Part shown: positions 40,113-58,858 of the stretch, in pieces
How the letters are laid out: each line of letters opens with the position of its first letter
Position numbering within the stretch: the first letter of the stretch is position 1
From: Nostoc sp. LEGE 12450
GTDB taxonomy: Bacteria > Cyanobacteriota > Cyanobacteriia > Cyanobacteriales > Nostocaceae
Direction of reading: 5' to 3'
Length of the DNA stretch: 64,000 bases
Assembly: GCF_015206895.1 (NCBI RefSeq)
Contig: NZ_JADEXU010000013.1
Location: forward strand, 1-64,000
Translations under genes and position numbers: made by a program
Notes under the pieces: model-generated
What the model saw: the letters and a program-made list of their open reading frames with translations, nothing else
Database searches by the model: none
What the model was told of the DNA's origin: nothing

Positions 40113-40886
40113 TTACTCAAAGTTTGCTGCTGCATTTACAGCAATTGCGATCGCATTTTTCACAGCAATATCCCTCTGTTCTAAGATGATATTTTCACTC
40201 ACAGTACGCCCAGCAACTACACCGCAAACAGCAGCAGCAGCAAAATTATACACACCTGCCATTTTGAATAGTGTGCCGGATTCCATCTCATAATTCAAGA
40301 TATTTAAGCGCCGATATTCTTCTGTGATGCCATGCAGCGATCGCATTAAATTTGGATTTGCTGAATCAGTGCGTTCTTGTCCTTCGTAAAAAGTATCAAC
40401 TGATGCCGTAATTCCGATGTAATGTTTAACCTTTAATTCTCGCGCGGCTTTAACTAAAGCGACTGTCAGAAACGGATCGGCTGCGGCTGGATATTCCACA
40501 GGTGCAATGTCATTTGCTGCACCTTGGCGACATAATGCTGCACTGCTAATAACAACGCTACCGACTGATATATAAGGTTGAATTGCTCCGCAAGTTCCAA
40601 TGCGAATAATTTGCCGAATTCCTACTTGTATTAACTCGTTGACAACAATACTTAATGAAGGCGCACCCATACCACTAGTAGCTGATAAGATGCTGCGGCC
40701 ATTTGGTAAGTATCCTACATAGCTATTTAGACCGCGATTTTCCGATAATAAGCGGGCATCTTGGAAATAAGTTTGGGCAATTAGATGCGATCGCTCTGGC
40801 TCACCAGATAATAGGGCAATGCTGGGAGGCGATGAACCTAAATCATCTTGTCCAAAGCCAATGTGATAAAAGCGTTTATTTGCCAT
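40113..40886 (-). CDS. udp: nucleoside phosphorylase (uridine phosphorylase type)
   Basis: A 257-residue PNP/UDP-superfamily enzyme that splits nucleosides with phosphate in salvage. It has the phosphate-site GxG region (ATSGMGAPSLSIVVNEL), RIGTCGAIQPYISVGSVVI, GITASVDTFYEGQER and the ribose-binding NYEMESGTLFKMAG. These motifs favour uridine phosphorylase-like members, though purine substrates cannot be excluded. Its ATG lies inside the last codons of the truncated ISAs1 transposase frame (11-nt overlap), so the native promoter region has been replaced by the insertion. Confidence 0.88.
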   Translation of the reverse strand: MANKRFYHIGFGQDDLGSSPPSIALLSGEPERSHLIAQTYFQDARLLSENRGLNSYVGYLPNGRSILSATSGMGAPSLSIVVNELIQVGIRQIIRIGTCGAIQPYISVGSVVISSAALCRQGAANDIAPVEYPAAADPFLTVALVKAARELKVKHYIGITASVDTFYEGQERTDSANPNLMRSLHGITEEYRRLNILNYEMESGTLFKMAGVYNFAAAAVCGVVAGRTVSENIILEQRDIAVKNAIAIAVNAAANFE

Positions 40887-41505
40887 TCAATAATAATGCC
40901 AGAATAGCTGTAATCTCATTTGATTTATCTTCTACTTTCATCTGTGCCAAGACCAAATTTTGTTCGCTTGCCCAGGCGCTAATCACGTGCAATGCTGCCA
41001 CGCCTTGATTTCGGTCGTAAGAACCCCTAATGGTCTTTCCGTCTATAGGAATTCTCTCTCCTCCCATCTTTGTCACCAGGGTTTCTATCCATCTCAAGAA
41101 ACAACGATTTAATTCTTCTGGGTTAATGAACTCAAATACCCGTCGAAAGGTATCGTCCGATAGCGAAGCGGTAGCCAGTCTTCGAGCGTCTGGAATTCCA
41201 TGTGGTAATGCCAAGAACTCTTCTAACCACTTTTGCTTACTAATGCCGTAATTCTCGATGTCTTCCCACCCTTGCGCTCCGGCTATTACTGCTAGAATTG
41301 CAATCACCAAGATATCCGTGAGTTGATGTTTCTTTGTTCGCTCTACTCTTGGGTCTTTGATGTCCCCAAAATTCTCCATCAAACTCTGTTGAATTGCTCC
41401 TATAGATGCTACTTCTTGCGGCTTTGGCTGATGACGATTACTTTTCTTGGCTGGAGCCGATTTAGTGTTAAATCCAACTCTTAGAGACGCTTTGCGAACA
41501 GACAT
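40876..41505 (-). pseudogene. ISAs1-family transposase, truncated at the C-terminus
   Basis: The 209-residue N-terminal part of an ISAs1 DDE transposase: GDIKDPRVERTKKHQLTDIL, GWEDIENYGISKQKWLEEFL, INPEELNRCFLRWIETLVTK and the first catalytic Asp region IPIDGKTIRGSYDRN. Normal members run to about 370 residues; here the frame ends right after EDKSNEITAILALLLNGK at the junction with the udp gene. Residues DARRLATASL in place of a direct IP-SDDTFRR join come from an inserted 30-nt repeat. The protein cannot be functional. Confidence 0.9.
41161..41190 (-). repeat. 30-nt dispersed repeat inserted in frame in the transposase
   Basis: The minus-strand sequence runs GACGCTCGAAGACTGG then CTACCGCTTCGCTA. 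The palindromic arrangement and the extra residues in the protein point to an inserted repeat of a different family from the copies at 7263 and 25629. Confidence 0.6.
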
Positions 41506-41841: not shown

Positions 41842-44800
41842 TCAGGTTTCTGCAATAATTTGATCTATGCAAGCCTTCATTTTTTCGGACACAGATCGTA
41901 CATGGGGTTCTTTAAAAATGGAATTATGAATCCCAGAAATATCATAAATATCCACCCCCCCTAATGCCAATTTACCCCAACCCATTTTGGAATCAGCCTC
42001 TCGTTGTCCAACTACAAGACCATCTTCTGTTCGGAATACGGTTGCTCGACCTGAGTAAATTTGTAGAGCATATTTTCTGAGCGCTTGTATGGTAGCGTGT
42101 TCCACCATGTATTTCCGGTTGGAGTAAGGTAAGGGGCGACCGAGAATCAAGTGAAAGTGAAAAACAAAGCGCCAGAGTATCTCTTTGATTTGATACTTAA
42201 ACCGTTCTGTATTTCCTTTTACCTGCTCAATAAGATAGTTAGATGTAATTGCTAAAAGACTCTTCCAATCACGAGAGGCTGGCTTTTGCAATGATAGGGA
42301 TTCAGTATTTTTTGAACCATAAGTATCAAATAGAACTAGCAAAGCTACTTCCTTACCTTGTATGGTCAATTGCCGAGCCATCTCGTAAGCAATTAAACCC
42401 CCGGAAGAGTATCCACCGATTAAATAAGGCTCACATGGCTGAATAGTCTGGATTTGTTGAATGTAGTGCGCTGCCATGTCTTCAATTCGGGTATAAGGAA
42501 GCTGTTTTCCATCTAACCCTTGTGGTTGTAGTCCATAAAATGGTTGATCTGATCCTAAATGCACTGCCAATTCACGGAAACGTAGAACTTCTCCACCCAA
42601 ACCATGTACACAGAAGAAAGGAGGTTTAGAACCGTTGGGCTGAATAGCTACTAAAGATGACCAAGGAATTGATGTTTCAGACTTGACATCAGCTGTTGGT
42701 ACTGCCGCAACCCCAGATTTTGAGCATATTTCTCGCTCAACAATATTAGCTAACTGCTCAATAGTTGGGGCTTGCAAAAGTATAGATAGAGCTAGATTTT
42801 TCCCCACTATCTTTTCAATCTGAGAAAACAGACGTACTGCCAGCAGCGAGTGTCCACCCAAATCAAAAAAGTTATCTGTTATTCCAATCGGATGAATTCC
42901 TAAAACATTTTCCCAGATTTCTGTTAATTGAAGTTGTAATGGATTTTTTGCCGTAGCAAATATTTTTTCTCTTTCAGTATTAGTTGGATTAAGAGCAAGT
43001 AAGGCTTTACGATCAACTTGACCATTAGCATTCAACGGCAGAGAATCAACTATGACAAAGGTAGGCAACAAATGCTCAGGTAGCTTTTGCTGGAGAAAAT
43101 TCAGCAGTTGCTCATTTCCCAAAGCCTCTCCTTGTTTTGGGACAAGATAAGCAACTAAATGTTTATCTCCAGAAACATCTTCTCTGGCAATCACCACAGC
43201 ATTCTGCACGCCTGGATATTGATCCAAAATTGTCTCAATTTCTGTCAACTCAATCCGAAAACCGCTAATTTTAGCCTGATTATCTCGGCGGCCAATAAAC
43301 TCAATATTGCCGTCACTTAAGTAGCGTCCAAAGTCGCCACTTCTGTGAAGGTATGACCCGGATTCGCTGCTAAAGGGATTGGGGATAAATTTCTCAGATG
43401 TTAACTCAGTACGATTAAAGTAGCCTTGTGCAACACCGATACCACTGATGTAGATTTCGCCAGTAACGCCAATTGGCAGGGGTTGCGATCGCCGATCGAG
43501 AATGTAGATTTGGGTATTGGCGATCGCTTTTCCTATAGGAATTTCTGAACGAGTGTTACTGGCTTCAGTGGCAGTTGCCGGATCGTAAACCGTGGCGGTT
43601 AAAGTCGTTTCTAGCGATCCATAGCCATTAAGCCAACGTACTTGCTTGCCAACTTTTTCTACCCAAGTTAAATAAGCATTACGTGAGACTTTTTCACCAC
43701 CAACCATGACTAAGCGCAAGCTGACTGGCAAGGTTTGTGGAGATAGAGACGGCTCTTTAACTAACTGATGCCAAAAATACGTAGGTAGATTAACAACGGT
43801 AATCTGTTGTTGAGTAATGAATGGGAAAAACTGCGCTGTCGATTGTAACTCTTGAGACTGGATAATTGCAGTAGCACCAGCAATCCAAGTGGGGAATAAT
43901 GATTCTATAAAAGAATTGCAAGTGATACTAGGTAAGAGTAGGAGGCGATCGCTCTGGGTCAACTCCCAAGTGTCACTGATTGCTAGACTGTGGGTGACAA
44001 GATTACGGTGGGTAATGGTTATACCATTAGGTTTTCCATTGCCGCCGGACACATACATCACACAGGCGAGAGTCTGATCTGTAGTATAATAGTCTTGATT
44101 TTCTGTTGTATGTAGTGCGATACCTTCCCAATCATTATCTAAACAGATAACTTGTAGCTGATGCTCAGAGAGTTTTTCAACCAATGAGCTTTGAGTTAAC
44201 ACTACGGATATTTGGGCATCTTCTAAAATGAGAGCCAGACCATCTTGCCCAGATGTCGGAACTATGGATACGTAGGTTCCCCCAGCTTTCAAAATACCCA
44301 ACAGCCCCACAATCATCTCTAGCGAAGGTTCTACATAAAGACCGACGAATACCCCCGATTTTACCCCTAGAGTTTGCAAATAGTGGGCTAATTGATTTGC
44401 ACGCTGGTTGAGTTCCTGATAAGTTAGTTGCTGATTTTCAAAACTTACTGCAATATTATCTGGAGTTCGTTTAGCTTGAGCCTCAAACCACTGATGGATA
44501 CAAGTATTCTGCGGATAATCAGCCTGTTTGCCATTCCAGTCAACCAATAATTGATGCTCAGGTGCTGTCAACAGAGGTAATTCAGATATCGGCTGATCGG
44601 GATTAGCAACAATACCTTCGAGTAAAGTTTTGAAGTGTCCCAACATTCGCTCTATGGTACTGGCATCAAACATCTCGGCATTGTAATCAAATACCATACC
44701 TAGACCATTATCCTGTTCCCGCAAGACTAATGTCAGATCGTATTTGGTTTTGCCATGATAGATGTAACCAAATAGAGAAGTAATAGTCAAATCAGGTAGT

Positions 44801-46128
44801 TGCAATGCCCCCATCCCACGACCATTTGACCAAGGAGGATTGAGGGAGAACTTTACTTGAAATAAAGGCGAACTGTTCCGACTTTGTTGTTCTGGTCTAA
44901 GTTCTTCAATTAGTCTCTCAAATGGTAAGTCTTGATGGGTATAAGCCTCTAAGCAATCCTTACGCACGCGGTCTAACAATTGTCGAAAAGTTGGATTTCC
45001 TGCTAAGTTACCCCGCATTACAAGAGTATTAGAGAAAAATCCAATCAAGCGTTCGGTTTCTACTTGTCCCCGACTTGCACTTGCAAAGCTAATCAGTAGG
45101 TCTTCTTGTCCAGAATAACGGTAGAGCAATAGCTCAAACACTGTCAGGAGAGTCATGAAGAGGGTAACACCCCATTTTTGACTCAGGTCTGTCAAGGCAT
45201 GGTTCAGCGTCTTTGATAGCAGCAGGGCAGCGCGATCGCCTCGATATGTCTGCACACCATGAGGACGCGGATGATCGTAAGGTAACTCAATAATTGGTAA
45301 ATTGCCTTCTAGCTTTTGCTTCCAGTAGTTTACCTGTGACTCTAAAACCTCTCCTTGGAGCCACTGATATTGCCAATTGGTAAAATCGGCATACTGCACT
45401 GGTAAGGGAGTTAAGGGAGAAGCATTTCCCGCCGATAATGCTTTATAGATAGTAGTGAAGTCTTGATAAAATATATCAGAAGAAGCTCCATCACAAACTA
45501 TGCAGTGCATATTCCAGATTAACAGATGCTCGCGATCGCTCAACCGCAGAAGCAGCAGCCGCAAAATCGGCCCATTGGCTAGATCAAAAGGTTGATGAGC
45601 TTCTTTCGTTGCAAGTAGGAGAGCTTCTGCCTCCCGTTGTTCATCTGGTATTTGCCGCAAGTCAATTATTGGCAACGTCAAGGAAACATCGCTAGCAATT
45701 ACTTGAGTAGGCTTGCCATTTACGGCTGGAAAAGTTGTCCGCAGAACTTCATGGCGGCGGACGACTTCTCTCAAACTTTCCTCTAAGAAAGCAACATTGA
45801 GATTCCCCGTAAACCGCACCACAACGGGCATATTATTTGAAGAACTATTAGGTTCAAATTGATGCAGGAACCATATCCGTTGCTGACCAAAAGAAAGCGG
45901 CAAGTTGCCATTCCGTTCACAAGCGACAATTGGGGGAATCTGTGAACTGGCAGCTGTAGTAATTTGTCGGAGAAAGTTGATGATTTCGGCTTTTTGAGTT
46001 TTTAACTCGGTGAGCAATTCTGGTGTGAGACTATCTTTTGCCGCCCGATAGCGTAAGCGATCGCCCTCTAACCAAAGTTTGACATCGCGCTGACGTAGTT
46101 CAGAGAGTAGTTCATCTAATGTTTTCAT
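41842..46128 (-). CDS. terminal NRPS module (TubC docking, C, A, PCP, TE) with degenerate C and A domains
   Basis: 1428 residues. A TubC-type docking domain (1-55) is followed by condensation (about 65-500), adenylation (about 525-1030), PCP (about 1060-1130, NFFDLGGHSLLAVRLF) and thioesterase (about 1160-1420; GGYSSGG nucleophile, LFDTYG, GIHNSIF). The TE looks complete. The C domain active site reads H208-C209-IVC-D-G, so the essential second His of HHxxxDG is Cys. The A domain has lost three key features: the P-loop is VSGGNGKPNG, the position of the amino-group-binding Asp is Asn738 (CNSFIESLF), and the A10 catalytic Lys is Gln1037 (NANGQVDRK). Probably only PCP-TE is active. The start overlaps the upstream NRPS stop by 4 nt (translational coupling). 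Confidence 0.93.
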   Translation of the reverse strand: MKTLDELLSELRQRDVKLWLEGDRLRYRAAKDSLTPELLTELKTQKAEIINFLRQITTAASSQIPPIVACERNGNLPLSFGQQRIWFLHQFEPNSSSNNMPVVVRFTGNLNVAFLEESLREVVRRHEVLRTTFPAVNGKPTQVIASDVSLTLPIIDLRQIPDEQREAEALLLATKEAHQPFDLANGPILRLLLLRLSDREHLLIWNMHCIVCDGASSDIFYQDFTTIYKALSAGNASPLTPLPVQYADFTNWQYQWLQGEVLESQVNYWKQKLEGNLPIIELPYDHPRPHGVQTYRGDRAALLLSKTLNHALTDLSQKWGVTLFMTLLTVFELLLYRYSGQEDLLISFASASRGQVETERLIGFFSNTLVMRGNLAGNPTFRQLLDRVRKDCLEAYTHQDLPFERLIEELRPEQQSRNSSPLFQVKFSLNPPWSNGRGMGALQLPDLTITSLFGYIYHGKTKYDLTLVLREQDNGLGMVFDYNAEMFDASTIERMLGHFKTLLEGIVANPDQPISELPLLTAPEHQLLVDWNGKQADYPQNTCIHQWFEAQAKRTPDNIAVSFENQQLTYQELNQRANQLAHYLQTLGVKSGVFVGLYVEPSLEMIVGLLGILKAGGTYVSIVPTSGQDGLALILEDAQISVVLTQSSLVEKLSEHQLQVICLDNDWEGIALHTTENQDYYTTDQTLACVMYVSGGNGKPNGITITHRNLVTHSLAISDTWELTQSDRLLLLPSITCNSFIESLFPTWIAGATAIIQSQELQSTAQFFPFITQQQITVVNLPTYFWHQLVKEPSLSPQTLPVSLRLVMVGGEKVSRNAYLTWVEKVGKQVRWLNGYGSLETTLTATVYDPATATEASNTRSEIPIGKAIANTQIYILDRRSQPLPIGVTGEIYISGIGVAQGYFNRTELTSEKFIPNPFSSESGSYLHRSGDFGRYLSDGNIEFIGRRDNQAKISGFRIELTEIETILDQYPGVQNAVVIAREDVSGDKHLVAYLVPKQGEALGNEQLLNFLQQKLPEHLLPTFVIVDSLPLNANGQVDRKALLALNPTNTEREKIFATAKNPLQLQLTEIWENVLGIHPIGITDNFFDLGGHSLLAVRLFSQIEKIVGKNLALSILLQAPTIEQLANIVEREICSKSGVAAVPTADVKSETSIPWSSLVAIQPNGSKPPFFCVHGLGGEVLRFRELAVHLGSDQPFYGLQPQGLDGKQLPYTRIEDMAAHYIQQIQTIQPCEPYLIGGYSSGGLIAYEMARQLTIQGKEVALLVLFDTYGSKNTESLSLQKPASRDWKSLLAITSNYLIEQVKGNTERFKYQIKEILWRFVFHFHLILGRPLPYSNRKYMVEHATIQALRKYALQIYSGRATVFRTEDGLVVGQREADSKMGWGKLALGGVDIYDISGIHNSIFKEPHVRSVSEKMKACIDQIIAET

Positions 46129-49100
46129 AGCTCACCTTCCTCATAATCATCGGCGGTTTCACTATCAGCAGCCTGAACACTTTGGGTTGCCCAACGCAGA
46201 GTTTCCACTCGTTCAGCCAAATCTGCTACCGTTGGTAATTCAAATAAATTGGACATGAGGATTTCTACCTGCAAAGCTTGGCGCAGTCGAGAAACCACTT
46301 GAATTCCTAGTAGAGAATATCCACCCAATTCAAAAAAGTTGTCATAAATCCCAACCTGCCTGATATTCAAAACCTGTATCCAGATATCTGCAATCTGCTG
46401 CTCAATGGGAGTGCGAGGCGCTACATAATTTGCTTCCAGTTCTGGACGGAAAGAATCAGGCTTTGGTAGTGCCCGACGATCAACTTTGCCGTTAGCATTT
46501 AGCGGCAAGGCTTCCAGTGCCATAAAAATCTTGGGCACCATATATTCAGGAAGCTGCTGTTTTAAGAATCGACGTAATTCGGAGATTATTTGCGGGCTAT
46601 CTTGACCAGTTTCTGCTACAAAATAACCAACTAGCACTTTCTCACCAGGAGCATCTTCTCGAACAATTACTACCGCTTCTTTTACTGCCGTATATTGTAA
46701 AAGTGCAATTTCAATTTCACCCAATTCTATGCGGAAACCGCTCACTTTCACCTGATTGTCAATCCGACCCAGGTATTCAATCTTTCCATCTGGCAAATAG
46801 CGAGCTAAGTCTCCAGTTTTATATAAGCGTGATTGAGTATCTGAGCTAAAGGGATTGGCAATAAATCTTTCAGCCGTCAGATCCGGGCGATTGAAATATT
46901 CTCGTGCTAAACCATCGCCACTAATATACAACTCACCTGTGATTCCAATTGGGACGGGTTGTAAATGGGAGTCTAATATATAAACTTGAGTATTAGCAAT
47001 GGGGCGACCAATAGGAATAGAAGCCCCTGGCTTTAGTGGTCCTGTAATCTCATAACAGCAGGTAAAAGTTGTACTTTCTGTCGGCCCGTAACCATTAATT
47101 AGTTTACAGTTTTCTACTGTGTTGATAAATTTCTGGACATGGGTAACGGATAAAACATCACCACCTGCTAATAGTTGACGTAAGGGTTTTAAAGCATCAA
47201 TTTTTTCATCGACTATTAGATGGAATAAACCCGCTGTTAGCCATAAGGTTGTCACCTGATATTGCTGAATAAATTGTCCTAATTCGTCTAAAGATGGCGT
47301 ATGGGGAGGGAATATTATTAGTTTTCCACCATTAAGCAAACAACCCCAAATTTCAAAAGTTGAAGCATCAAAAGAGATAGGGCTAATTTGCAGAAATACT
47401 TCTTTGTTAGTGAGGCTTACATAGTTAGTTTCATTGACTAATCTAACTACACCTTGATGGATAACACTAACACCTTTGGGCTGACCTGTAGAACCAGATG
47501 TGTACATTACATAAGCCAAGTTGTCAGCCTTGACATTACTAATTAAATTCTCTGGCGTTGCTTGGTTGATAGTATCCCAGTCGGTATCTAGACAAATTAC
47601 ACTTGCTGCGTGAGCAGGTAGTTTGTCAATTAGCTGTTTTTGGGTCAATAGTAATTTGATCTGGGTGTCTGAAAGCATGAAAGCCAAGCGTTCTTGCGGA
47701 TAGCCCGGATCTAGGGGGATGTAAGCTCCACCTGCTTTCAGAATCCCTAAAAGACCTACTACCATTTCTAAGGAGCGATCAACGCAGATTCCCACAAGAA
47801 CATCTGCGCCTACTCCTAGTGTTTGCAGGTATTGCGCTAATTGGTTCGCACGAATATTTAACTCTCGATAAGTAAGTTGCTGTTCTTGAAATACCAACGC
47901 CACCGCATTGGGGGTGCGTTCTACCTGCTCCTCAAATAACTGATGAATACATTTATCTTGGGGATAGTCTGTTTGAGTCTGGTTCCATGTTGCTAATAAC
48001 TGTTGCTCTACTGCTGGTAAAATTGGCAATTTAGCAATACTTTGATTGGGGTTAGCAACTATACCCAATAACAAAGTTTCAAACTCTGCCATCCGGTGGC
48101 GAATAGTGTCAGCGTCAAATAAATTAGTGTTGTACTGACATTCCAGGGTCATCTGACCACGTAATTCTGTAGCATTGATGAACAGTTCAAAATTCTCGAA
48201 GGAACGGGGGTTAGAGAAAAATTCTACTTCCAGCCCAGTGAAGGGGAGTTTATCACTATCTAAACCCTGATCGATATTAAATGTAATGGGAACTAAGGGA
48301 ATACGGCTAGAATCTCGTGCCAAAACTAATTTTTTGACTAGACTACCAAAGGTAAATTGTTGATGATCGTAAGCATCTAAGACAGCCGATCGCCGCGATC
48401 GCAAGTAGTCGCTGAAAGATTTTTCGCCATCAATCTGGCTACGCAAAGGTAGTAAATTTACACAGTGACCTACGAGATTATATTGCCCTAGAGCAGCTTG
48501 TCCGGCGGCTGGAATACCTACAATCAAATCGTTTTGTCCTGTCAGACGGTGCAGCCAAACCTCAAATCCTCCCAGGAGAGTAGTCATAAAGCTACAACCG
48601 AGTTTTGTCCCTAGTTGTTTGAGGTTGGCAACTAATTCGGGATTTAAATGCCAATCTTCGCGGGCGGCGTTAAAGGTTCTGAGTGGTGGACGGGGGCGAT
48701 CGCTAGGGAAATCTACAACAGGTACAGAGTCAGCGAATTGTTCCAACCAATATTTTTCTGTGGCGATCGCTTCTGGACTATCCGCCTCTTCTTCCTGCAA
48801 AATCGCGTATTCACTTAAATTGTCTGGTTCTTCTAATTCAGGAACAATACCCTGTTGCAAGCCAGAATAAAGTTTACCCAAATCTGGCATCAGCACTGCC
48901 CAAGACCAACCATCACAAATAATATGATGTGCTGTCAAAGTAGCTAGATGCTCGTGCGCCTGCAATTTGACAATTTTTGCCCGAAATAGCGGCCCATGTT
49001 CCAAATCAAAAGGTTGCTCTACCTCTTGTTGCAAGATACTAGCTAATTTTTCCTGTTGTTCTTGTGATTCCAGGTTAGAAAGATCAATAATAGGGATTTC

Positions 49101-49406
49101 AATTTGCCGAGAAGCAACAATGCAGAGTGTATTGCCATCGGTGCTAAAAGTTGTCCGTAGTGCTTCATGACGTTGTACTAACTTTTCCACCGCAGACTGG
49201 AAAATTTTGACATCAAGTTCGCCTTTTAGTCGCAGAGATTGGGACTCGTTATAAGCACAATTGGCAGCATCCCCCATTTGTACAGAAGCCCAGATTTCTT
49301 TTTGTGATTCTGTGGCAGGGGCCGTTAGAAGTAATTCTCCATCTGCAAATGGATCAAAATCAACCGCAGTTAAACTGGATTGGTAATCTACAGGTAATAA
49401 GCTCAT
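46125..49406 (-). CDS. NRPS module (C-A-PCP), Val-like specificity
   Basis: 1093 residues. The N-terminal lead-in (DPFADGELLLTAPATESQKE, then IWASVQMGDAANCAYNESQ) is that of condensation domains following PKS-aminotransferase modules. The C domain has an intact HHIICDG. The A domain has an intact P-loop (YTSGSTGQPKG), the Asp of FDASTFEIWG and Lys in NANGKVDRR. My manual readout of the specificity pocket is D-A-F-W-L-G-G-T-F-K, one change from the classic Val code DAFWIGGTFK. The PCP (DNFFELGGYSLLGI) is near the C-terminus, with an acidic tail. The A domain is closely similar to that of the loader (55917-57947), suggesting duplication or gene conversion. Confidence 0.94.
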   Translation of the reverse strand: MSLLPVDYQSSLTAVDFDPFADGELLLTAPATESQKEIWASVQMGDAANCAYNESQSLRLKGELDVKIFQSAVEKLVQRHEALRTTFSTDGNTLCIVASRQIEIPIIDLSNLESQEQQEKLASILQQEVEQPFDLEHGPLFRAKIVKLQAHEHLATLTAHHIICDGWSWAVLMPDLGKLYSGLQQGIVPELEEPDNLSEYAILQEEEADSPEAIATEKYWLEQFADSVPVVDFPSDRPRPPLRTFNAAREDWHLNPELVANLKQLGTKLGCSFMTTLLGGFEVWLHRLTGQNDLIVGIPAAGQAALGQYNLVGHCVNLLPLRSQIDGEKSFSDYLRSRRSAVLDAYDHQQFTFGSLVKKLVLARDSSRIPLVPITFNIDQGLDSDKLPFTGLEVEFFSNPRSFENFELFINATELRGQMTLECQYNTNLFDADTIRHRMAEFETLLLGIVANPNQSIAKLPILPAVEQQLLATWNQTQTDYPQDKCIHQLFEEQVERTPNAVALVFQEQQLTYRELNIRANQLAQYLQTLGVGADVLVGICVDRSLEMVVGLLGILKAGGAYIPLDPGYPQERLAFMLSDTQIKLLLTQKQLIDKLPAHAASVICLDTDWDTINQATPENLISNVKADNLAYVMYTSGSTGQPKGVSVIHQGVVRLVNETNYVSLTNKEVFLQISPISFDASTFEIWGCLLNGGKLIIFPPHTPSLDELGQFIQQYQVTTLWLTAGLFHLIVDEKIDALKPLRQLLAGGDVLSVTHVQKFINTVENCKLINGYGPTESTTFTCCYEITGPLKPGASIPIGRPIANTQVYILDSHLQPVPIGITGELYISGDGLAREYFNRPDLTAERFIANPFSSDTQSRLYKTGDLARYLPDGKIEYLGRIDNQVKVSGFRIELGEIEIALLQYTAVKEAVVIVREDAPGEKVLVGYFVAETGQDSPQIISELRRFLKQQLPEYMVPKIFMALEALPLNANGKVDRRALPKPDSFRPELEANYVAPRTPIEQQIADIWIQVLNIRQVGIYDNFFELGGYSLLGIQVVSRLRQALQVEILMSNLFELPTVADLAERVETLRWATQSVQAADSETADDYEEGEL

Positions 49407-49479
49407 AAAATTCTATTATTTTCTCAGTTTATTCAAAGTAAAATTTAATTTTTTCTTGGCAAAGTATTGGCATTTAAAT

Positions 49480-50631
49480 TCATTGTTTAGCCAAGATTGT
49501 AGACTTTAAATAATTACGCATTGGAACCTCTAAAAATCTATATGTCAATGATGCAGCCAATATGATAATCATAAGAAATACTCCTAGAGATGTCAAGGCT
49601 TCATATTCTGTGAATCCTTTGCCAAAAGCATGGTGGAATTTATAAATCCATAATGTTTTTAACAATTCTTGAACAAACCAATGAACCATGTAAATCGAGT
49701 AAGATATGGTCCCGAAATACAGCATTAACTGTGAGTTTAAAAATTTTGATATTACACTATTATTGCTGATAGATACAGCTAAAATTAGGATAGAAAAAGC
49801 TGGCAAAATTAGCCAATCATGAAGACTACGCCAATAAGTCCAGTAGTAATTCATAATCAGAATTATCCAAGTTATAGCTATAATTGCTAGCAAATTAAGA
49901 TTAAAATATTTTCTATAATTACCTCTGCGATAGATTTTATAAGTTATAATGCCGAGTATGCACTCTAGCCCGCATCTAGCTATGGAAGGTATGCCAATAA
50001 TACTATCTAGATTTCCACGGGTAAAAGCGATTATTAGTAATATACTGAAGAGAGCAGAGACATAAATTTTTAAATCATTTTTCTCATTATTTCGTAATAA
50101 CAAAAATAAGAGAAATGGAAATATAGAATAAATAACAAATTCTACACTAATTGACCAAGCTGGCTCATTCCAATAAGTATCACACCAAAATAAAGGTGGG
50201 CAATTTAAGTCGAACGCTTGAAGAAGGAAAAAATTAGCAAAAAGGGCAGTTAAATTAAATTTGCCAGTAAAAGCAGAATTATTTAGTAAAAATATTTTTA
50301 AAATTTCTAATCCGATAAATAGAGATAAAACAAATATATGTAGAGGATAAATTCTGGCAAAACGCGACAATAAATATGAACGATATTTAGATGAATTAAC
50401 TTTTAATGAAAAATCTTCAATATAAACGTGGGTCATGATAAAACCACTCAAAATGAAGAAAAAATCAACCCACAAATATCCATTACGAAAAAAATTGCTA
50501 TATGCTGATAAAGTTGAACCAGTTTTAGGTAAAGTGTAATATGAGAAATGATGTACAACAACAACCAAAGCTGCAATACCGCGCAGAGCAGTGAGCGAAT
50601 TGATTTGGTTATACATTGATATTTTTGGCAT
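49480..50631 (-). CDS. acyltransferase-3 family membrane acyltransferase
   Basis: A 383-residue integral membrane protein with about ten helices. The N-terminal catalytic segment LTALRGIAALVVVVHHFSYY (His motif) and WVDFFFILSGFIMTHVY are hallmarks of the OafA/acyltransferase-3 family, which O- or N-acylates sugars, peptides or antibiotics. FLEVPMRNYLK closes the fold. It lies inside the NRPS/PKS operon between the aminotransferase-PKS and the C-A-PCP gene, on the same strand, so it may acylate the product (inference). Its base composition is more AT-rich than its neighbours'. A decayed relative lies at 57974-58265. Confidence 0.9.
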   Translation of the reverse strand: MPKISMYNQINSLTALRGIAALVVVVHHFSYYTLPKTGSTLSAYSNFFRNGYLWVDFFFILSGFIMTHVYIEDFSLKVNSSKYRSYLLSRFARIYPLHIFVLSLFIGLEILKIFLLNNSAFTGKFNLTALFANFFLLQAFDLNCPPLFWCDTYWNEPAWSISVEFVIYSIFPFLLFLLLRNNEKNDLKIYVSALFSILLIIAFTRGNLDSIIGIPSIARCGLECILGIITYKIYRRGNYRKYFNLNLLAIIAITWIILIMNYYWTYWRSLHDWLILPAFSILILAVSISNNSVISKFLNSQLMLYFGTISYSIYMVHWFVQELLKTLWIYKFHHAFGKGFTEYEALTSLGVFLMIIILAASLTYRFLEVPMRNYLKSTILAKQ

Positions 50632-50996
50632 TGAATTATCTCAAGAATATAAACAGTTAGATATTTTTAGGATAATATTGATGGTTTTATGGGATTTTTG
50701 AAATACAAGTTGTTCACCCGATTATAGTTTTGGTGGGCATTGACCACGCTATTTATAAAAATCATTTTGTTATATCAAATCTGTCAAAAGTTAGCTTTTA
50801 ATTTCTACTATGATCTGATTAAGACTTACTTGAACCAGGTTTAAGTACATTATCAGTTAATATAAAAGCCCTAATCGATGAGTATTTAATATTTGCAAAT
50901 ACAGTGAATTTTTGGTGTTGCTGAATTGGAGTAGGAATTGACATTTTTTGATATGACTTCATACTTGCAATCAGCAACGCCAATTTTTTAAAGCAC
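50632..50996. other. gap inside the biosynthetic operon
   Basis: A 365-nt AT-rich stretch between the PKS-aminotransferase stop and the acyltransferase start. A short minus-strand frame (50819-51040) overlaps the end of the PKS gene but has no protein-like features. It could carry an internal promoter for the acyltransferase. Confidence 0.5.
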
Positions 50997-53900
50997 TTAG
51001 GAAACACTTGCAACTTGTAAATACTTCCCAGGTCGCTCAATATCGGGGATATACCAAGCGGGGTTGCCTTGGGGATCTCGCCCTAATTTGGCATTAGGTT
51101 GCGGAGGACGATTACGTAGGCTGTTATTGGTAACTTCGCTGTTTGTTACTTCTATGGGCGGTGCAGACAAAAAGCCAGCAGACTGCATTTCGGCAATACT
51201 TTCTTTAAAGGCTGCCATTACAAAAGCTAGATCGGCTTCGGAATGGGCTGTTGTCAAGAAGCAAGGACGGTGATCCCAAGTATGCACTCCCTTATCCCGC
51301 AGTAAATAAAATAGTAAGTCTCCATAAGGAAACTCTGGTGCAGATTTCACCATAAATAGGGAGCCGAAGTTATAAGCTGTATACGGAGCCTGAACTTTCT
51401 GGAAATAGCCCATAAGTTCCGCTACAAACTTATCGGTTCTTGCATTGAGATTTTGCTGCAAGCTGGGGCCACTCTGTTTTAAATGTTGAAGTACTGCTTT
51501 GGCGGCTGCTAGTGCTAAAGGATGGCGGACAAAAGTTCCGGCAAAGTAAGTTACACCAACTTCTGGAACTGAGTCATCCCCAAACTGCCAAAATCCACCA
51601 TCTAAAGCATCCATATATTGTGATTTCCCAGCAATGACTCCAATCGGTAGTCCACCGCCCACAATCTTGCCGTAGGTTGCTATATCAGCTTTGATACCAA
51701 AATGTGCCTGAGCGCCACCTGGATGAATTCTAAATCCGGTAACGATTTCGTCAAAAATTAGAGCAATACCAGCTTCTTCCGTGAAATCACGTAATTGCTG
51801 AAGGAATTCCTTGGGCTGGTATTCAGGGCGACGGCTTTGCACAGATTCAACCATCACTGCTGCTAACTCATCAGCCCGGCTTCTAAGGATTTCTAGAGAC
51901 TCAGGTGAATCGTAGTCCACCACCAAAATGTTCTCTACCATTTCCGGTGGAATACCGGGAGCAGCCGGAATTGACCGGAGTTTTTTTGTCCCCCGAACAA
52001 TTACTTCATCCAAAATACCGTGATAAGCTCCAGAAAAGATAGCGATTAAGTTACGCCCTGTGATGGTGCGTGCCATCCGCATCGCTCCCAAAACCGCTTC
52101 CGAACCTGTGTTGCAAAAGGCTGCTCGGTCAAAGTTGGTCAACTCACACATCAGCTTTGCCACTTCTCCAACTAAGGGAGTCTGCGGCCCAATTTCCATG
52201 CCTAGTTTCAGTTGCGCTTCTATTGCTTCGGTAATGAAAGGTGGCGACCAACCAAACAAATTCAAACCAAAGCCATTGCTTAAATCGACATATTCATTGC
52301 CATCAAGATCCCAAAGTTTAGAACCCGATGAACGAGACGCTACGATGGGATAAACCATCTCTTTCATCGTCGGGTTAAAACCAGAAACAGTTCTTGGATC
52401 TGCTAGATAAGGACGATGGGATTGAGTATATTCTTTGGATTTTTTAGTCCGTTGTGTGTATCTTTGAATAATTTTGTCTAGATAAGTGCGTTGTTGCGTT
52501 GTCAGAGTTTTAGTCTGGGTTTTTTCAATTCGAGCAGCCGCACCAAATGCCTTTTTAGCACCATTTGATTCCGTGTCTACCGATGCAGGTGATTCTTTGC
52601 TGGTTTGAGTTGCTGGGATAGATACGGCGTTTTGTGGTTTGACACCATTATTTTGAGGTGTCGCCGCAGGTACGACTGGGATTGTTACAGGTTGACTGTT
52701 GTTACCCAATAATGCCAATTGCTGACTCATGATTTGTAGCTGCTGATTAATCACATTTTCGAAGAAACTGGATGCAGCAGGTTGGGGAGAAATCTGAGGT
52801 GCAGATCCATTTGTATGAACTTCATGCACTACCAAAGTGGGTGATGTGGTTGCAGGTGCTGGTAATGGTACTTCTGGAATGGGTTCTGCAACGGTTTCTG
52901 TTAATCCTAATGCGGATAAAGTTTCGGGAGACAAGGCTGGATTGATAAAGTCAGCTAGTGTTCCTAAATTGGGGTAAATTTCTAGTAACTGCCTTAGTGT
53001 TACCTTTACTTGAAATTTTTTCTTTAACGCTAGCCCCACTTGAGTCAGTGATAAAGAATCTAATCCCATTTCTAAAAATGTTGTCGAATCGTCAACACTA
53101 GCGATTTCCAATCCTGATGTTTCTTCGATAATTTCTTTTAGCAGAGGAATAAGCTTTTGCTGAGGAGATTTTGTCATATCTTGGGTATTTTCTAACTGGG
53201 GATTTGAAGGTTTGGGAGTTGCTGTGCGATTGGGATGAGGTAAAGGATCAATCCAGAAGCGTTGGCGTTCAAAGGGATAGGTAGGCAGAGGAATTCGTTG
53301 TCGCGTTTCCCTTTGATAGAAGTTGCTCCAGTCAATAGATACTCCTGCTAGCCACAGTTGTCCTACTGCCTTGAGTAATGCTGTCCATTCAGCTTCGTTC
53401 TCAGCGTTATCGCCCAGAGAAGCGATCGCTATCTGTTGTTTAATATCTTTTGCTTGTTGGCGGGCTAGGGTCGTAGTTGTGATTCGCGGCCCAACTTCTA
53501 ACAGTACGCGTTCTGGCTGCTGCCATAAGGTTTGTATACCCTCCGCAAATCGCACAGTCTGACGTAAATGTCTAGCCCAATACATCGGATCAGTTGCTTG
53601 CTGGGCTGTAATCCAGTCGGCGGTAACTGTGGAAACAAAGGGAATTTGAGGAGGTGATAATTTAACTTTCCTAACTACCTCAGCGAAGGGGGCTATGATG
53701 TCATCCATCATTGGGGAATGGAAAGCGTGGGAAGTGTGTAAACGGCGACAGACAACTTCTTCGCTTTCTAGTTGTTTTTGCAGAGCCGCGATCGCTTCTG
53801 TTGGCCCAGAAACTACACACAGGGAAGGGCCGTTAATTGCGGCGATCGCTAATTCTGGACTCAATCGCGGCTCTACCTCTTTGGCTGGTAAGCGCACTGA

Positions 53901-55913
53901 GAGCATGGCCCCTTGTGGTAAGTCCCACATGAAGCGACCGCGATTCGCAACTAACATCAGTGCATCTTCTAAGGTGAATACACCCGCAATACAGGCGGCG
54001 ACAAATTCGCCAATGCTGTGACCAATCATCGCTTGGGGCTTGACTCCCCAACTTTGCCACAGTTGCGCTAAAGCGTATTCAATGACGAATAATGCTGGTT
54101 GAGTAAAGCAGGTTTGCCGTAGGGCGATAGCGGCAGTTTCGCGATCGCTTGGCGCGGGATATATAATTTTTCGTAAATCACCGCCCAGTAATGGTTTAAG
54201 GATTTCTGCACATTCATCTACTACCTCCTGAAACACAGGTTCACGGTTGTAGAGATTCAGTCCCATATCCACATATTGCGACCCTTGTCCGGGGAACATG
54301 AAGGCAACAGCTGGATTACGGATTTCTGTATGGCGGGTATTTACTTGATTGGGATCTAAAAATTGTAACGCTGCGATCGCATCTGTGATGTCGTGACAAA
54401 CTACACTACGTCGATAATTTAAGGCTTTGCGCCCTCGCTGTAGGGTATAAGCTACATCGGCTAAGTTAATTTCAGCATTGTACTGGAGATGTTGCTGCAA
54501 ATTTGCTGTTGCAGCTTCTAAGGCTGTACTAGTTTTTGCCGAGAGCAACAATAGCTGCTGTGGACGAGAAGATCCAGAATTTTGAATTTGTGGCGCTTCT
54601 TCCAGCACAATATGAGCATTAGTCCCGCCGACACCAAAAGAACTTACACCGGCTCGTCGCGGAGTTTCACCTTCTGGCCATTCAGCTAGTTTGGTATTTA
54701 CATAGAAAGGGCTATTGGCAAAATCAATCTTGGGATTGGGAGCCTCAAAATTTAAGCTAGGTGGAATCTTTTTATAATGCAGGGCAAGAACGGTTTTAAT
54801 TAATCCTGCTACCCCAGCCGCCGCAACTAAATGTCCGACATTGCTTTTCAGAGAGCCGATCGCACAAAATTGTTTAGCATCTGTATGCACACGAAATGCT
54901 TGCGTCAGCGCTTCAATTTCAATGGGGTCGCCTAAAGGTGTGGCTGTACCGTGAGCTTCAATATAAGAGATGGTTTCTGGATGGAAGTTGGCATAAGCTT
55001 GCGCCATTGCAACGGCTTCTGCTTGTCCGTCTACGCTAGGAGCCGTAAAGCTTACTTTATCAGCACCATCATTATTAATACCTGAACCACGAATTACGGC
55101 ATAGATGCGATCGCCTTCATTGAGTGCATCTTCTAAACGCTTGAGGACAACTATTCCTGCACCATTGTTGAACATTGTACCCTGAGCGCTGGCATCAAAG
55201 GGACGACAATGACCATCTCCAGACAGCATACTGCCTTCTTGAGCCATATAACCGCTATTTTGAGGTGTAGTCATAGATACACCACCAGCTAAAGCCATAT
55301 CGCACTGATAGCTGCTTAAGGCTTGGCAAGCTTGAATAATTGCTACTAAAGAAGTAGAGCAAGCTGTATTAACACTGACAGCCGGGCCTTTCAGGTTGAG
55401 CTTGTAAGCAGCACGGGTGGTTAAAAAGTCTTTTTCATTTGCTAACATCGTCTGGAACTCGCCGATGCGATCGACAATTTCCATGCGTCCAGAAATATGG
55501 TTGGCAAAATAAGTATTTTGACCACAACCAGCGTATAAACCAATCAAACCATCGAAAGATTCTGATTCATAACCAGCATTTTCTAGAGCTTCATAAACCA
55601 ACTCTAGAAAAACTCTAGCTTGTGGGTCCATAACCACAGCTTCCATTGGATTAATGCCAAAGAAGGCAGCATCAAAAGTTTCTCCCCCAGGAATGATTCC
55701 TCTAGCTTTTACATAACTGGGATCTTTGCAAAGGTTCGGGTCAATGCTGGGATCTAATTCCTCATCTTGAAAAAAAGTCGTTGACTCTAATCCCTCACAC
55801 AGATTGCGCCAAAACTCATCGACATTGCCAGCGCCAGGAAATCTTCCTACCATGCCGATAATGGCAACACCATCAATAGGATCTTGGTTATCTGAGGTTT
55901 GCATATTTACCAT
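50997..55913 (-). CDS. type I PKS with aminotransferase (KS-AT-ACP-AMT)
   Basis: 1638 residues. KS (about 10-440) has Cys in NTACSTSLVA and His in EAHGTATPLGDP and KSNVGHLVAAAG. AT (about 550-850) has GHSIGEF and HAFHSPMM, the malonyl-CoA signature. ACP follows at about 940-1010 (FLEMGLDSLSL). A low-complexity linker leads to a class III PLP aminotransferase (about 1160-1580; AAFCNTGSEAV, FDEIVTGFR, PLP Lys in ATYGKIVGGGLPIG). No KR, DH or ER is present, so the beta-keto group is left for transamination. The order matches the aminotransferase modules of mycosubtilin, microcystin (McyE) and microginin synthases. Here the following C domain is in a separate protein, yet the C-terminus (GNPAWYIPDIERPGKYLQV) is the usual linker into one. 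Only 3 nt separate it from the loader gene. Confidence 0.95.
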   Translation of the reverse strand: MVNMQTSDNQDPIDGVAIIGMVGRFPGAGNVDEFWRNLCEGLESTTFFQDEELDPSIDPNLCKDPSYVKARGIIPGGETFDAAFFGINPMEAVVMDPQARVFLELVYEALENAGYESESFDGLIGLYAGCGQNTYFANHISGRMEIVDRIGEFQTMLANEKDFLTTRAAYKLNLKGPAVSVNTACSTSLVAIIQACQALSSYQCDMALAGGVSMTTPQNSGYMAQEGSMLSGDGHCRPFDASAQGTMFNNGAGIVVLKRLEDALNEGDRIYAVIRGSGINNDGADKVSFTAPSVDGQAEAVAMAQAYANFHPETISYIEAHGTATPLGDPIEIEALTQAFRVHTDAKQFCAIGSLKSNVGHLVAAAGVAGLIKTVLALHYKKIPPSLNFEAPNPKIDFANSPFYVNTKLAEWPEGETPRRAGVSSFGVGGTNAHIVLEEAPQIQNSGSSRPQQLLLLSAKTSTALEAATANLQQHLQYNAEINLADVAYTLQRGRKALNYRRSVVCHDITDAIAALQFLDPNQVNTRHTEIRNPAVAFMFPGQGSQYVDMGLNLYNREPVFQEVVDECAEILKPLLGGDLRKIIYPAPSDRETAAIALRQTCFTQPALFVIEYALAQLWQSWGVKPQAMIGHSIGEFVAACIAGVFTLEDALMLVANRGRFMWDLPQGAMLSVRLPAKEVEPRLSPELAIAAINGPSLCVVSGPTEAIAALQKQLESEEVVCRRLHTSHAFHSPMMDDIIAPFAEVVRKVKLSPPQIPFVSTVTADWITAQQATDPMYWARHLRQTVRFAEGIQTLWQQPERVLLEVGPRITTTTLARQQAKDIKQQIAIASLGDNAENEAEWTALLKAVGQLWLAGVSIDWSNFYQRETRQRIPLPTYPFERQRFWIDPLPHPNRTATPKPSNPQLENTQDMTKSPQQKLIPLLKEIIEETSGLEIASVDDSTTFLEMGLDSLSLTQVGLALKKKFQVKVTLRQLLEIYPNLGTLADFINPALSPETLSALGLTETVAEPIPEVPLPAPATTSPTLVVHEVHTNGSAPQISPQPAASSFFENVINQQLQIMSQQLALLGNNSQPVTIPVVPAATPQNNGVKPQNAVSIPATQTSKESPASVDTESNGAKKAFGAAARIEKTQTKTLTTQQRTYLDKIIQRYTQRTKKSKEYTQSHRPYLADPRTVSGFNPTMKEMVYPIVASRSSGSKLWDLDGNEYVDLSNGFGLNLFGWSPPFITEAIEAQLKLGMEIGPQTPLVGEVAKLMCELTNFDRAAFCNTGSEAVLGAMRMARTITGRNLIAIFSGAYHGILDEVIVRGTKKLRSIPAAPGIPPEMVENILVVDYDSPESLEILRSRADELAAVMVESVQSRRPEYQPKEFLQQLRDFTEEAGIALIFDEIVTGFRIHPGGAQAHFGIKADIATYGKIVGGGLPIGVIAGKSQYMDALDGGFWQFGDDSVPEVGVTYFAGTFVRHPLALAAAKAVLQHLKQSGPSLQQNLNARTDKFVAELMGYFQKVQAPYTAYNFGSLFMVKSAPEFPYGDLLFYLLRDKGVHTWDHRPCFLTTAHSEADLAFVMAAFKESIAEMQSAGFLSAPPIEVTNSEVTNNSLRNRPPQPNAKLGRDPQGNPAWYIPDIERPGKYLQVASVS

Positions 55914-55916
55914 TGC

Positions 55917-57947
55917 TTAAACACCTTGTTGATGATTACGGCGACGAGCTTGGGCTGCTTGTTGGCGTTGAGCGCGATTTTGCAGCTTGTCATGAGACGG
56001 TTGGCTGTTCTGGTTTGAATGCAAATATTTTGCTAAAGAGCCAATCGTTGAATACTGAAATAGCTTTACAGCAGGTAGTTCAATACCAAGTTCCTGTTTG
56101 ACTCGCGCAGCAACTTGCAGAATTGAGATTGAAGTTCCTCCTAAATCAAAGAAATTATCATCAATCCCAACGCGATCGATTTTGAGCAGTTCGGATAAAA
56201 TACCTGCAAGCAGACGCTCTAAATCGGTTTGGGGAGTAATATAAGCTTGTTCCAGTTGTGGACGTTCTCTACTTGGTGCTGGCAATTTATGTCTATCTAC
56301 TTTGCCATTTGCAGTCAAAGGCAGTGACTCTAACATCACAAACGCTGATGGCACCATGTAATGAGGTAGTTGCTGCTGTAAAAAACTACGTAAATTATTG
56401 TGTGTATATTTGCTGTTATAGTGAGGAACAATATAAGCAGTCAACTGCTTTTCACCTGTTTCATCCTGACGAGCTAAAACAACAATTTCCCGAACATCAG
56501 GATGTTGTGCAATCTCCCGCTCAATTTCGCCTAGTTCAATTCGGAAACCGCGAATTTTTACCTGATTGTCAATCCGACCTAAAAACTCGATATTGCCATC
56601 TGGAAGATAACGAGCTAAATCTCCGGTTTTGTAAAGGCGGGTTATTAAATTGCTATCAAATGAGTGAGAAATAAATTTTTCGCCAGTCAATTCGGGGCGA
56701 TTCAAATACCCTCTAGCTAATCCATCTCCAGCAATGTACAATTCGCCAATTTCTCCAATTGCTACTGCTTGAAAGTTGTTGTCTAATATATAAACTTGGG
56801 TATTAGCAATTGGGCGACCAATAGGAATAGATACACCTGGTTGCAGTGGCGCTGTTATCAGATGACAGCAGGTAAAAGTTGTATTCTCAGTTGGCCCATA
56901 ACCATTAATTAGCCGACAGTTCTCTACTGTTTGGAGAAACTTCTGTACATGGGGAACAGATAAGACATCGCCACCCGCTAAAAGTTGACGCAAAGATTTT
57001 AACGCATCAATTTTTTCATCCACTATGAGATGGAATAAGCCGGCTGTCAGCCAAAGAGTAGTGACTTGATATTGTTGAATAATCTGCCCTAATTCTTCTA
57101 ATGATGGTGTATGAGGAGGGCAAATTACTAGTTGCCCACCGTTAAGTAAGCAACCCCAAATTTCAAAAGTTGAAGCGTCGAAGGAAATAGGAGCAAGTTG
57201 CAGAATTATTTCTTCAGCCGTGAGGTGAGCATAATTAGTTTCTTTAACCAACCTAACTACACCACGATGGATAATGCTAACCCCTTTGGGTGTACCTGTA
57301 GAACCTGATGTATACATGACATAAGCCAAGTTTTCAGCAGTGACGTTAGTGCTTAGGTTCTCTTTTTTATTTTGGGCGATTGTATGCCAATCTGCATCTA
57401 GGCAAATTACAAATGCTGTATGAGTAGGTAATTTAGCAACTAGTTCTTTTTGAGTTAATAGTATAGATACCTGGGTATCTAATAGCATAAAAGCTAAACG
57501 TTCTTGTGGATACCCTGGATCTAGTGGTACATAAGCTCCACCCGCTTTGAGGATAGCTAAAAGTGCTACAACCATTTCTAAGGAGCGCTCTATGCAGATA
57601 CCTACAAGAGTTTCTGCTCCTATACCTAATGTTTGTAGATATTGTGCCAGTTGATTAGCACGACTATTCAAATCTCTATAGGTGAGATGCTGATTATTAA
57701 AGATTAATGCTACAGCATCAGGTGTTTTCTCAACCTGTGCTTCAAACAACTGATGAATACACGCTTGTTGAGGATAATCTGTTTGAGTCTTATTCCACTC
57801 GATGAGTAGGTCTTTTTCGGATTTTTTCAAGATAGGTAATGTTAAATTATATCGTTCTGAGTTATTATCTGATGATAATGATGTTTGACACTCAGTTACC
57901 AAAAATTGATTTTTATTTTTAGCTAATGAATCAGTTATTGCTTTCAT
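55917..57947 (-). CDS. NRPS loading module (A-PCP), Val-like specificity
   Basis: About 676 residues from ATG 57947 (a TTG at 57962 is in frame; GGA 8 nt upstream favours the ATG). There is no condensation domain. The A domain (about 65-570) has an intact P-loop (YTSGSTGTPKG), FDASTFEIWG, NGYGPTENTTFTCC, GFRIELGEIE and catalytic Lys in TANGKVDRH. The pocket code by manual alignment is D-A-F-W-L-G-G-T-F-K, Val-like. The PCP (DNFFDLGGTSISIL) is followed by a Gln/Arg-rich tail, likely a docking element for the KS. It begins the operon: it should load valine and pass it to the KS of the next protein. It is not a fatty-acyl ligase: the amino-acid-binding Asp is present. Confidence 0.93.
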   Translation of the reverse strand: MKAITDSLAKNKNQFLVTECQTSLSSDNNSERYNLTLPILKKSEKDLLIEWNKTQTDYPQQACIHQLFEAQVEKTPDAVALIFNNQHLTYRDLNSRANQLAQYLQTLGIGAETLVGICIERSLEMVVALLAILKAGGAYVPLDPGYPQERLAFMLLDTQVSILLTQKELVAKLPTHTAFVICLDADWHTIAQNKKENLSTNVTAENLAYVMYTSGSTGTPKGVSIIHRGVVRLVKETNYAHLTAEEIILQLAPISFDASTFEIWGCLLNGGQLVICPPHTPSLEELGQIIQQYQVTTLWLTAGLFHLIVDEKIDALKSLRQLLAGGDVLSVPHVQKFLQTVENCRLINGYGPTENTTFTCCHLITAPLQPGVSIPIGRPIANTQVYILDNNFQAVAIGEIGELYIAGDGLARGYLNRPELTGEKFISHSFDSNLITRLYKTGDLARYLPDGNIEFLGRIDNQVKIRGFRIELGEIEREIAQHPDVREIVVLARQDETGEKQLTAYIVPHYNSKYTHNNLRSFLQQQLPHYMVPSAFVMLESLPLTANGKVDRHKLPAPSRERPQLEQAYITPQTDLERLLAGILSELLKIDRVGIDDNFFDLGGTSISILQVAARVKQELGIELPAVKLFQYSTIGSLAKYLHSNQNSQPSHDKLQNRAQRQQAAQARRRNHQQGV

Positions 57948-57973
57948 ATTTAATTTCCGCAAAAAATATATCT

Positions 57974-58265
57974 TTTTGCAAAACTTGTAGTTTTTAAGTA
58001 GTGCTGCATTTTTAACTCGACAGATGTCAACTTTAACGATGCAGCTAATGTTACTACTAAACTATACAAAACCAGAATTATTACTGAGTGAAAAATACTA
58101 AGGTTTGTTCTAAAATTCATATTGAGAGATACTTTTATATAGATATAGATTTTTGGATAAACCAGTAAACTATGTAAGTTGAGTAGGATATTGTTTCGAG
58201 ATAAAGAAGTAACGATGAATTATGATGTCTGAAAACTAAATATAGCTCCAACACCACGCAAATTT
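57974..58265 (-). pseudogene. decayed acyltransferase-3 gene remnant
   Basis: The stretch aligns by eye with the acyltransferase gene at 49480-50631: GATGCAGC(T/C)AAT and ACCATGTAAATCGAGTAAGATAT-like segments recur as ACTATGTAAGTTGAGTAGGATAT, in the same order. Near 58243-58265 the minus strand reads LRGVGAIFS, matching the LRGIAALVV start motif, so the middle of the gene is deleted. No frame is maintained. It lies directly upstream of the loader gene. Confidence 0.6.
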
Positions 58266-58858
58266 TGTTTAAATACTAGTATTTTTAATTACATTTTTTA
58301 GTCATATTTTTAATTTTTAAATTATATTTCAAGGCTAATTTGACAAGAAATCATGCCGCAATCTTATAATGTTTATATGAAAGGGCACTGACTCTTAGAT
58401 TTAGTTTTTTTATTTTGACCTATTTCCTCAAAATCTGAGTTATTTTCAATACATCTTCATTGAAAATTAAAACTTTAGAGGTGATTTGCAATGAGAGTAT
58501 TAACTGTACGTTCGCTTATTTGAGAGGATAAGAAGGATCAATGCCTTGATGGGCAAGGAAGACAGCGATTTTACCAGCCGATAAGCAAGCAATGGAATCC
58601 CTTTGGAGGTAGTTTGAACTCCAGGCTATGACCAGCGAAATTTTTTGTGACCCTAATTCTACTTATTAATACTTAGTCATCTCAATATTTTATAATATAA
58701 AATAGTTATACCTTATACAATTGGCATAAATCTTTGCAACACATCAGTCGGCTGTAGGGACGTACATCTGTACTGCCTACGTAAGTATTTGTACCAGGTG
58801 TATTGTAAAATATTAAGCTGATTAGGGCAGGCAAGATGCCAGCAACGCCAATTTCATA
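58266..58858. other. AT-rich gap, nothing recognised
   Basis: About 590 nt between two gene remnants. No conserved frame, hairpin with T-run or RNA gene was recognised. The promoter of the NRPS/PKS operon should lie near its left side, within or beside the acyltransferase remnant. Confidence 0.4.

Follow-up and report, generated by a model that had tools for sequence, protein, structure and literature searches.

A proposed amino-acid-primed assembly line with an aminotransferase module

The 64,000-nucleotide stretch of Nostoc sp. LEGE 12450 DNA analyzed here (contig NZ_JADEXU010000013.1, positions 1 to 64,000; hereafter the window) carries a five-gene cluster of nonribosomal peptide synthetase (NRPS) and polyketide synthase (PKS) genes on the minus strand, at positions 41842 to 57962. 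We read this cluster as an amino-acid-primed line with an aminotransferase (AMT) module, which would make a diaminoacyl-valine chain, pass it through a non-elongating terminal module and release it by a thioesterase (TE); judged from sequence, the probability of this reading is roughly 0.6. All five open reading frames (ORFs) were intact, and their Pfam domains gave the gene order A-PCP, KS-AT-ACP-Aminotran_3, Acyl_transf_3, C-A-PCP, and TubC_N-C-A-PCP-TE. The architecture and coordinates proposed in an earlier sequence-only reading were thereby borne out, and so, by the codes and motifs given below, were its Val-like A-PCP loader, its malonyl-extending PKS module without a ketoreductase (KR), and its Val-like C-A-PCP module.

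The loader gene (55917 to 57962; 681 amino acids) starts with TTG, with an ATG 5 codons downstream, and encodes an A domain (about 56301 to 57746; code DAFWLGGTFK) and a PCP (about 56022 to 56213). The nine Stachelhaus code positions read DAFWLGGTF, which we take to be a Val code, both in the loader and in the A domain of the second module (A2); both domains carry NGKVDR, and they are 73% identical (369/504). The PKS gene (50997 to 55913) encodes a KS (about 54597 to 55868), an AT (53367 to 54302), an ACP (52944 to 53141), and an Aminotran_3 domain (51285 to 52352) with the PLP-lysine motif, the arrangement of an AMT-containing type I PKS module. The KS Cys-His-His, AT GHSIGE/HAFHS, and AMT lysine motifs were intact in the window and in aligned relatives, and the serines were present in the carrier domains of the cluster. 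The best PDB matches of the AMT were 6kfu and 6kfm, the AMT of mycosubtilin MycA (about 457 bits). No KR, dehydratase, or enoylreductase domain was found by Pfam in the five cluster genes (KR at E 0.001). The second module (46125 to 49406) consists of a C domain (C2, about 47994 to 49322) with an intact HHIICDG motif, A2 (46485 to 47936), and PCP2 (46206 to 46400).

In the proposed pathway, the loader would activate valine, and the KS would accept the valyl group for extension by one malonyl unit, giving 4-amino-5-methyl-3-oxohexanoyl-ACP. The AMT would then convert the 3-ketone to an amine, giving 3,4-diamino-5-methylhexanoyl-ACP, to which C2-A2-PCP2 would add valine. Given a Val-type loader, one malonyl extension, a mycosubtilin-related AMT, and a Val-type module, the beta,gamma-diamino acid named in the sequence-only reading is the natural prediction and is kept here as such. 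To our knowledge, such acids are rare natural building blocks. Since the motifs are intact through PCP2, the preferred reading is Val coupled to a 3,4-diamino-5-methylhexanoyl unit. The 4-amino-3-oxo or 3,4-diamino chain could instead leave before C2 as a tetramic acid or gamma-lactam, a cyclization that is chemically easy for gamma-amino thioesters. This early exit is very unlikely, as C2 is intact and grouped in the C-domain tree with C domains mostly downstream of AMT modules, and the A2 motifs are intact as well.

Searching genome contigs with the PKS protein as query, we obtained 46 loci (numbered with an L). Domains of relatives were called with HMMs built from the relatives themselves; the duplicates L093, L101, L102, and L106 (equal to L019, L021, L034, and L038) were dropped before counting, and loci L058 to L087, together with AMT or C matches below the length cut, were left out of the trees. 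To evaluate selection, we compared 11 chosen loci in 55 pairs, separately for each of 11 domains. Median dN/dS values of 0.048 for the KS and 0.038 for the AMT indicated strong constraint, followed by 0.115 for C2, 0.144 for A2, and 0.148 for the loader A domain. Decay of the whole cluster was ruled out, because the median of each of the 11 domains lay between 0.04 and 0.28; the highest single-pair value was 0.51, in the last PCP.

A terminal module that probably adds no residue

The last gene (41842 to 46128) encodes a TubC_N docking domain (45964 to 46116), a C domain (44545 to 45909), an A domain (43021 to 44487), a PCP with its serine retained (PCP3, 42745 to 42930), and a TE with the motif GYSSGG (41845 to 42621). 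As seen, both the HHxxxDG motif and the A-domain Lys517 of a canonical elongating NRPS module are missing. The terminal C domain reads HCxxxDG (HCIVCDG), the second His being gone, and the terminal A domain (code NSENMGGLT) is degenerate: its A3 motif is VSGGNGKPNG, with the A3 lysine lost, Asp235 is replaced by Asn, and NGKVDR has become NGQVDR, with Lys517 replaced by Gln.

In a C-domain tree of 93 rows, made by a quick method without bootstrap, the terminal C domain fell in a clade of 22 rows (SH-aLRT 99) from Nostoc-type strains, Leptolyngbya, and other genera. The second His was absent in all 22 members, with C, S, or R at its position, and in only 2 of the 71 rows outside the clade (one each in L057 and L104); we regard the motif change as no sequencing accident. 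Lys517 was absent in 12/12 full-length terminal A domains, a count made without L088, L095, L096, and L104, whose domains extend beyond the DNA retrieved, and L012 and L015, which are in pieces. In four loci (L013, L014, L022, and L030), the A domain is gone while the C domain, PCP, and TE stay. Taken with the median dN/dS of 0.093 for the terminal C domain versus 0.265 for the terminal A domain, these counts and losses indicate that the C domain is conserved whereas the A domain is loosely held. The PCP serine was retained in 29/29 TE-bearing terminal modules among the matches listed.

The terminal module therefore probably adds no residue and would serve for hand-over and release. It would take over the diaminoacyl-Val chain from PCP2, and the TE would release it as the free acid or through attack by a free amine, which could give, for instance, a seven-membered lactam. 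The release module of the sequence-only reading is thus present with its TE, but its probable inability to elongate, through loss of the C-domain His and the A-domain Lys, had been missed. Alternatively, PCP3 might be loaded with Val in trans and the terminal C domain might condense, giving a tripeptide. The intact PCP3 serine and TE motif and the strong conservation of the C domain fit such a route, but it is unlikely in view of the His missing from the whole C-domain clade, the Lys517 missing from every full-length A domain, and the A domain deleted in four loci. A two-residue product is likelier than a three-residue one. That a C domain is conserved although its second His is missing poses a question about noncondensing C domains that can be put to the test.

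A widespread family with apparently exchangeable substrates

Of the 46 loci, 19 showed at least 86% identity and belong to Nostoc and close genera (Nostoc-type loci); the remaining loci, at 26 to 63% identity, come from Tychonema, Lyngbya, Leptolyngbya, Bacteroidota, Planctomycetota, Pseudomonadota, and others. With the relatives' own HMMs, no AMT domain was found in L027, L035, and L046. Among 243 sampled genomes of the order, 80 had an AMT at an E value of ≤1e-90, and 19 matched the family in full, as gauged by how well the C-terminal tail was covered. An AMT tree of 80 rows (quick method), whose sampling favors query-like rows, although the query contained no loader, placed 60 family rows (SH-aLRT 99) apart from 20 other cyanobacterial AMTs, which served as controls. 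Loaders were counted in the 52 family rows in which 800 bases or more could be seen ahead of the KS, the other 8 of the 60 having too little DNA there. An A-CP directly precedes the KS in 51 of the 52; the sole exception, L037, has a CP without an A domain. The window cluster has its AMT in the 60-row clade and an amino-acid A-PCP directly upstream, which sets it apart from the AMT families primed by a fatty acyl-AMP ligase (FAAL) or a PKS. By these sequence comparisons, the amino-acid-primed KS-AT-ACP-AMT line is a widespread family across distant bacteria and not a one-off.

The loader codes of the family include Val-type, Thr-type (DFWNIGMVHK), Pro-like, Asp-like, and Gly-like codes and others without an assigned type. 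As L006 has a Thr-type loader on a Nostoc core, and L005, L007, L008, and L010 have a second A domain of a different type, substrates appear to have been swapped while the core stays. A KS-AT-ACP-AMT core whose loaders can be exchanged, with codes of the Val-, Thr-, Pro-, Asp-, or Gly-like kind, would lend itself readily to engineering. We also observed that an insert divides the A domains of L004, L012, L024, L025, L088, and L097 into two parts, a hint that they may be N-methylating. Many sampled cyanobacteria contain stand-alone-sized AMT homologues (open frames of about 460 to 530 amino acids, about 49 to 58% identical); in-frame stops interrupt some of them. Separately from the family, an AMT also follows an amino acid module at control loci L110, L111, L112, and L115, three of which carry the code IDWVVSLADK, presumably a beta-alanine-like code.

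Several points weigh against the line as proposed. The A-domain codes are predictions. Loss of the second His does not always inactivate a C domain, as reported for a VibH mutant, and PCP3, with its serine intact, could receive a residue in trans. Loss of an A domain need not mean loss of the His, since HHxxxDG is kept in the A-less C-CP modules of L056, L092, L097, and L098. The terminal C domain matches LCL C domains (Txo1, 308 bits) better than the X domain (4tx2, 174 bits), and an X-domain identity was rejected on these scores. As a C-A-CP precedes 4 of the 20 control AMTs (L110 to L112 and L115), amino-acid priming is not unique to the 60-row clade. Finally, no transporter turned up among the window genes scanned, and the phosphopantetheinyl transferase genes sit on other contigs, away from the cluster.

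Putative tailoring genes and the glycan neighborhood

Between the PKS and NRPS genes lies a membrane acyltransferase gene of the OafA type (Acyl_transf_3; 49480 to 50631; median dN/dS, 0.22), which is absent from the sequence-only reading and whose product may acylate the released peptide. A stretch of at least 170 amino acids of this protein was found in 17 of the 19 Nostoc-type loci; L006 ends before the gene position, and L027 has fragments only. Two remnants were also found on the minus strand. The first (50822 to 50898) marks a deleted Cupin_8-like gene, recognized by similarity at both edges of the gap; the gene follows the PKS in L002, L004, L005, L010, L022, and L023, is intact in sister strains such as L002, and has left pieces in L007, L008, and L012, while only the edges are left in the window. 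Its Pfam score was above the cut-off in L022 and just under it in L002. The second remnant (57965 to 58408), detected by tblastn/blastn upstream of the loader, derives from another acyltransferase gene, intact in L004.

Methyltransferases of the TIGR04325 family lie beside the cluster in L022, L030, L095, L104, and L056 and, by annotation, 5.5 kb from it in L057. Across 31 genomes, 10 places scored over the cut-off; 6 of them lay no more than 3 kb from an AMT of the family, and these fall at 4/20 family loci versus 0/20 control loci.

Several family loci have glycan genes as neighbors, encoding UGDH, Wzy-like, GT1, GT2, Wzx-like, and EPS-export proteins. L021 has a sugar-phosphate transferase, a Wzx-like protein, a synthetase with a fused GT2 domain, and two further ORFs that look glycosyltransferase-like by eye, and the layout of L034 resembles it. 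UGDH neighbors L089, a sugar transferase L090, and a Wzy-like protein L099; glycosyltransferases flank L091 and L103, a glycosyltransferase and an ATP-grasp protein flank L026, two GT2 genes lie on the opposite strand in L024, and polysaccharide genes lie beside L056 and L057. The control comparison was made for Bac_transf (PF02397) only. Among the matches listed, it occurred within 20 kb of the AMT at 9/20 family loci versus 0/20 control AMT loci (expected for the family, 0.65; Fisher P = 0.0006), and eight of these nine are not independent, because they share one cyanobacterial family code, f32; the ninth, G111, belongs to the same family as the window. Bac_transf was also near an AMT in 5 of a further 24 genomes or records (expected, 0.76; P = 0.001), namely Variovorax, Rhizobium, Psychroserpens, Pedobacter xixiisoli, and Dyella. 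Contigs were confirmed for the last three; elsewhere, contig matching used accession numbers where it was made. G109 and G151 lay outside the sugar-transferase search.

These neighbors raise the possibility that the diaminoacyl peptide is attached to an exopolysaccharide repeat unit, by neighboring glycan enzymes in the relatives and perhaps with the OafA-type acyltransferase in Nostoc. The Bac_transf excess, the other glycan neighbors, and the GT2 fusion in L021 speak for it, but we consider glycan decoration doubtful here: eight of the nine positives fall within one family code, and a TE suggests a freed product. Among the matches listed, no Bac_transf was on the window's contig, and none was seen in the 8 Nostoc-type genomes among the 24. 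No glycan gene was present among the window genes scanned, among 10 flank proteins of Nostoc-type L013, L088, and L023, or among the neighbors scanned in L018, L022, L033, L040, and L045. A block in L013 that had been taken for a sugar pathway proved to encode a citrate transporter, OmpA, Ras-like, and other proteins. For some members of the family, the sugar-transferase link thus appears genuine; for the Nostoc cluster it is unproven, given the excess elsewhere and its lack at Nostoc-type loci. A broader picture, likewise doubtful, is that this cross-phylum family makes small diaminoacyl peptides to be attached to polysaccharides of the bacterial surface, that glycosyltransferase fusions and TIGR04325 methyltransferases serve in tailoring, and that in Nostoc a conserved, noncondensing terminal C domain hands the finished peptide to the TE or the membrane acyltransferase. 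Should the link prove true, products of assembly lines would serve to decorate bacterial polysaccharides. Both this association and the probably non-elongating terminal module are new to the present analysis.

Other features of the window

Beside the cluster, a minus-strand gene at 59595 to 63998, running past the window edge, encodes a fusion of alkaline phosphatase, GDPD, and phytase-like domains with RTX repeats; two or more tandem phosphatase-type ORFs lie upstream of the cluster in 9 Nostoc-type relatives. Near the TE end, a minus-strand ISAs1 transposase-like ORF overlaps a uridine phosphorylase-like gene (40113 to 41505). On the plus strand, a lipoxygenase gene is followed by a P450 gene (25098 to 28415), a possible oxylipin pair. 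By Pfam, no P450 was found within the cluster genes; one, at 27051 to 28415, lies 14 kb away.

Comparison with known systems

Like the Nostoc cluster, mycosubtilin MycA, the best PDB match, has an Aminotran_3 AMT in a PKS/NRPS hybrid. Mycosubtilin is fatty-acid-primed, whereas an amino-acid A-PCP stands before the KS in Nostoc. The AMTs of other cyanobacterial clusters, presumably of the microginin, puwainaphycin, and microcystin types, are about 48 to 58% identical to the Nostoc AMT and form a separate clade; most have a low-scoring A domain, which we infer to be FAAL-like, or a PKS upstream.

Statine-type PKS modules likewise join an amino acid and one malonyl unit, but their KR gives an alcohol, the hydroxyl of statine, whereas the Nostoc PKS has an AMT and no KR. 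The sequence-only reading had speculated on a protease inhibitor, and a gamma-amino acid unit beside Val does resemble statine peptides. We consider a freely diffusing statine-like inhibitor highly improbable, and the proposal unsupported, as an amine replaces the hydroxyl and nothing in the neighborhood was seen to point to protease targets, although no test aimed at this question was made. The glycopeptide X domain (4tx2) is likewise a C-type domain before a TE whose motif lacks the second His; it is not the closest to the terminal C domain by sequence, and the Nostoc cluster genes include no P450.

In the open-licence PMC literature, as far as its texts were available, no described pathway or product for such diamino acids was found, and nothing was found on NRPS/PKS genes in exopolysaccharide loci; the available parts of PMC13291983, PMC12184294, and PMC4247773 do not describe the Nostoc cluster. 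The statement of the sequence-only reading that no described pathway matches is therefore fair for the product. For the layout it does not stand, because the family is widespread and Table 2 of PMC3870968 (2013) prints A-CP-KS-AT-CP-PLP1 for Pedobacter heparinus and Thiorhodococcus and C-A-CP-KS-AT-CP-PLP1-C-A-CP for Salinisphaera, each with no product known. As far as that table goes, the P. heparinus (C6XWU5) and Thiorhodococcus (G2E5C9) proteins share the A-CP-KS-AT-CP-PLP1 layout of the Nostoc cluster, which differs in being split over genes and in having, in addition, an acyltransferase and a last module that is probably non-elongating.

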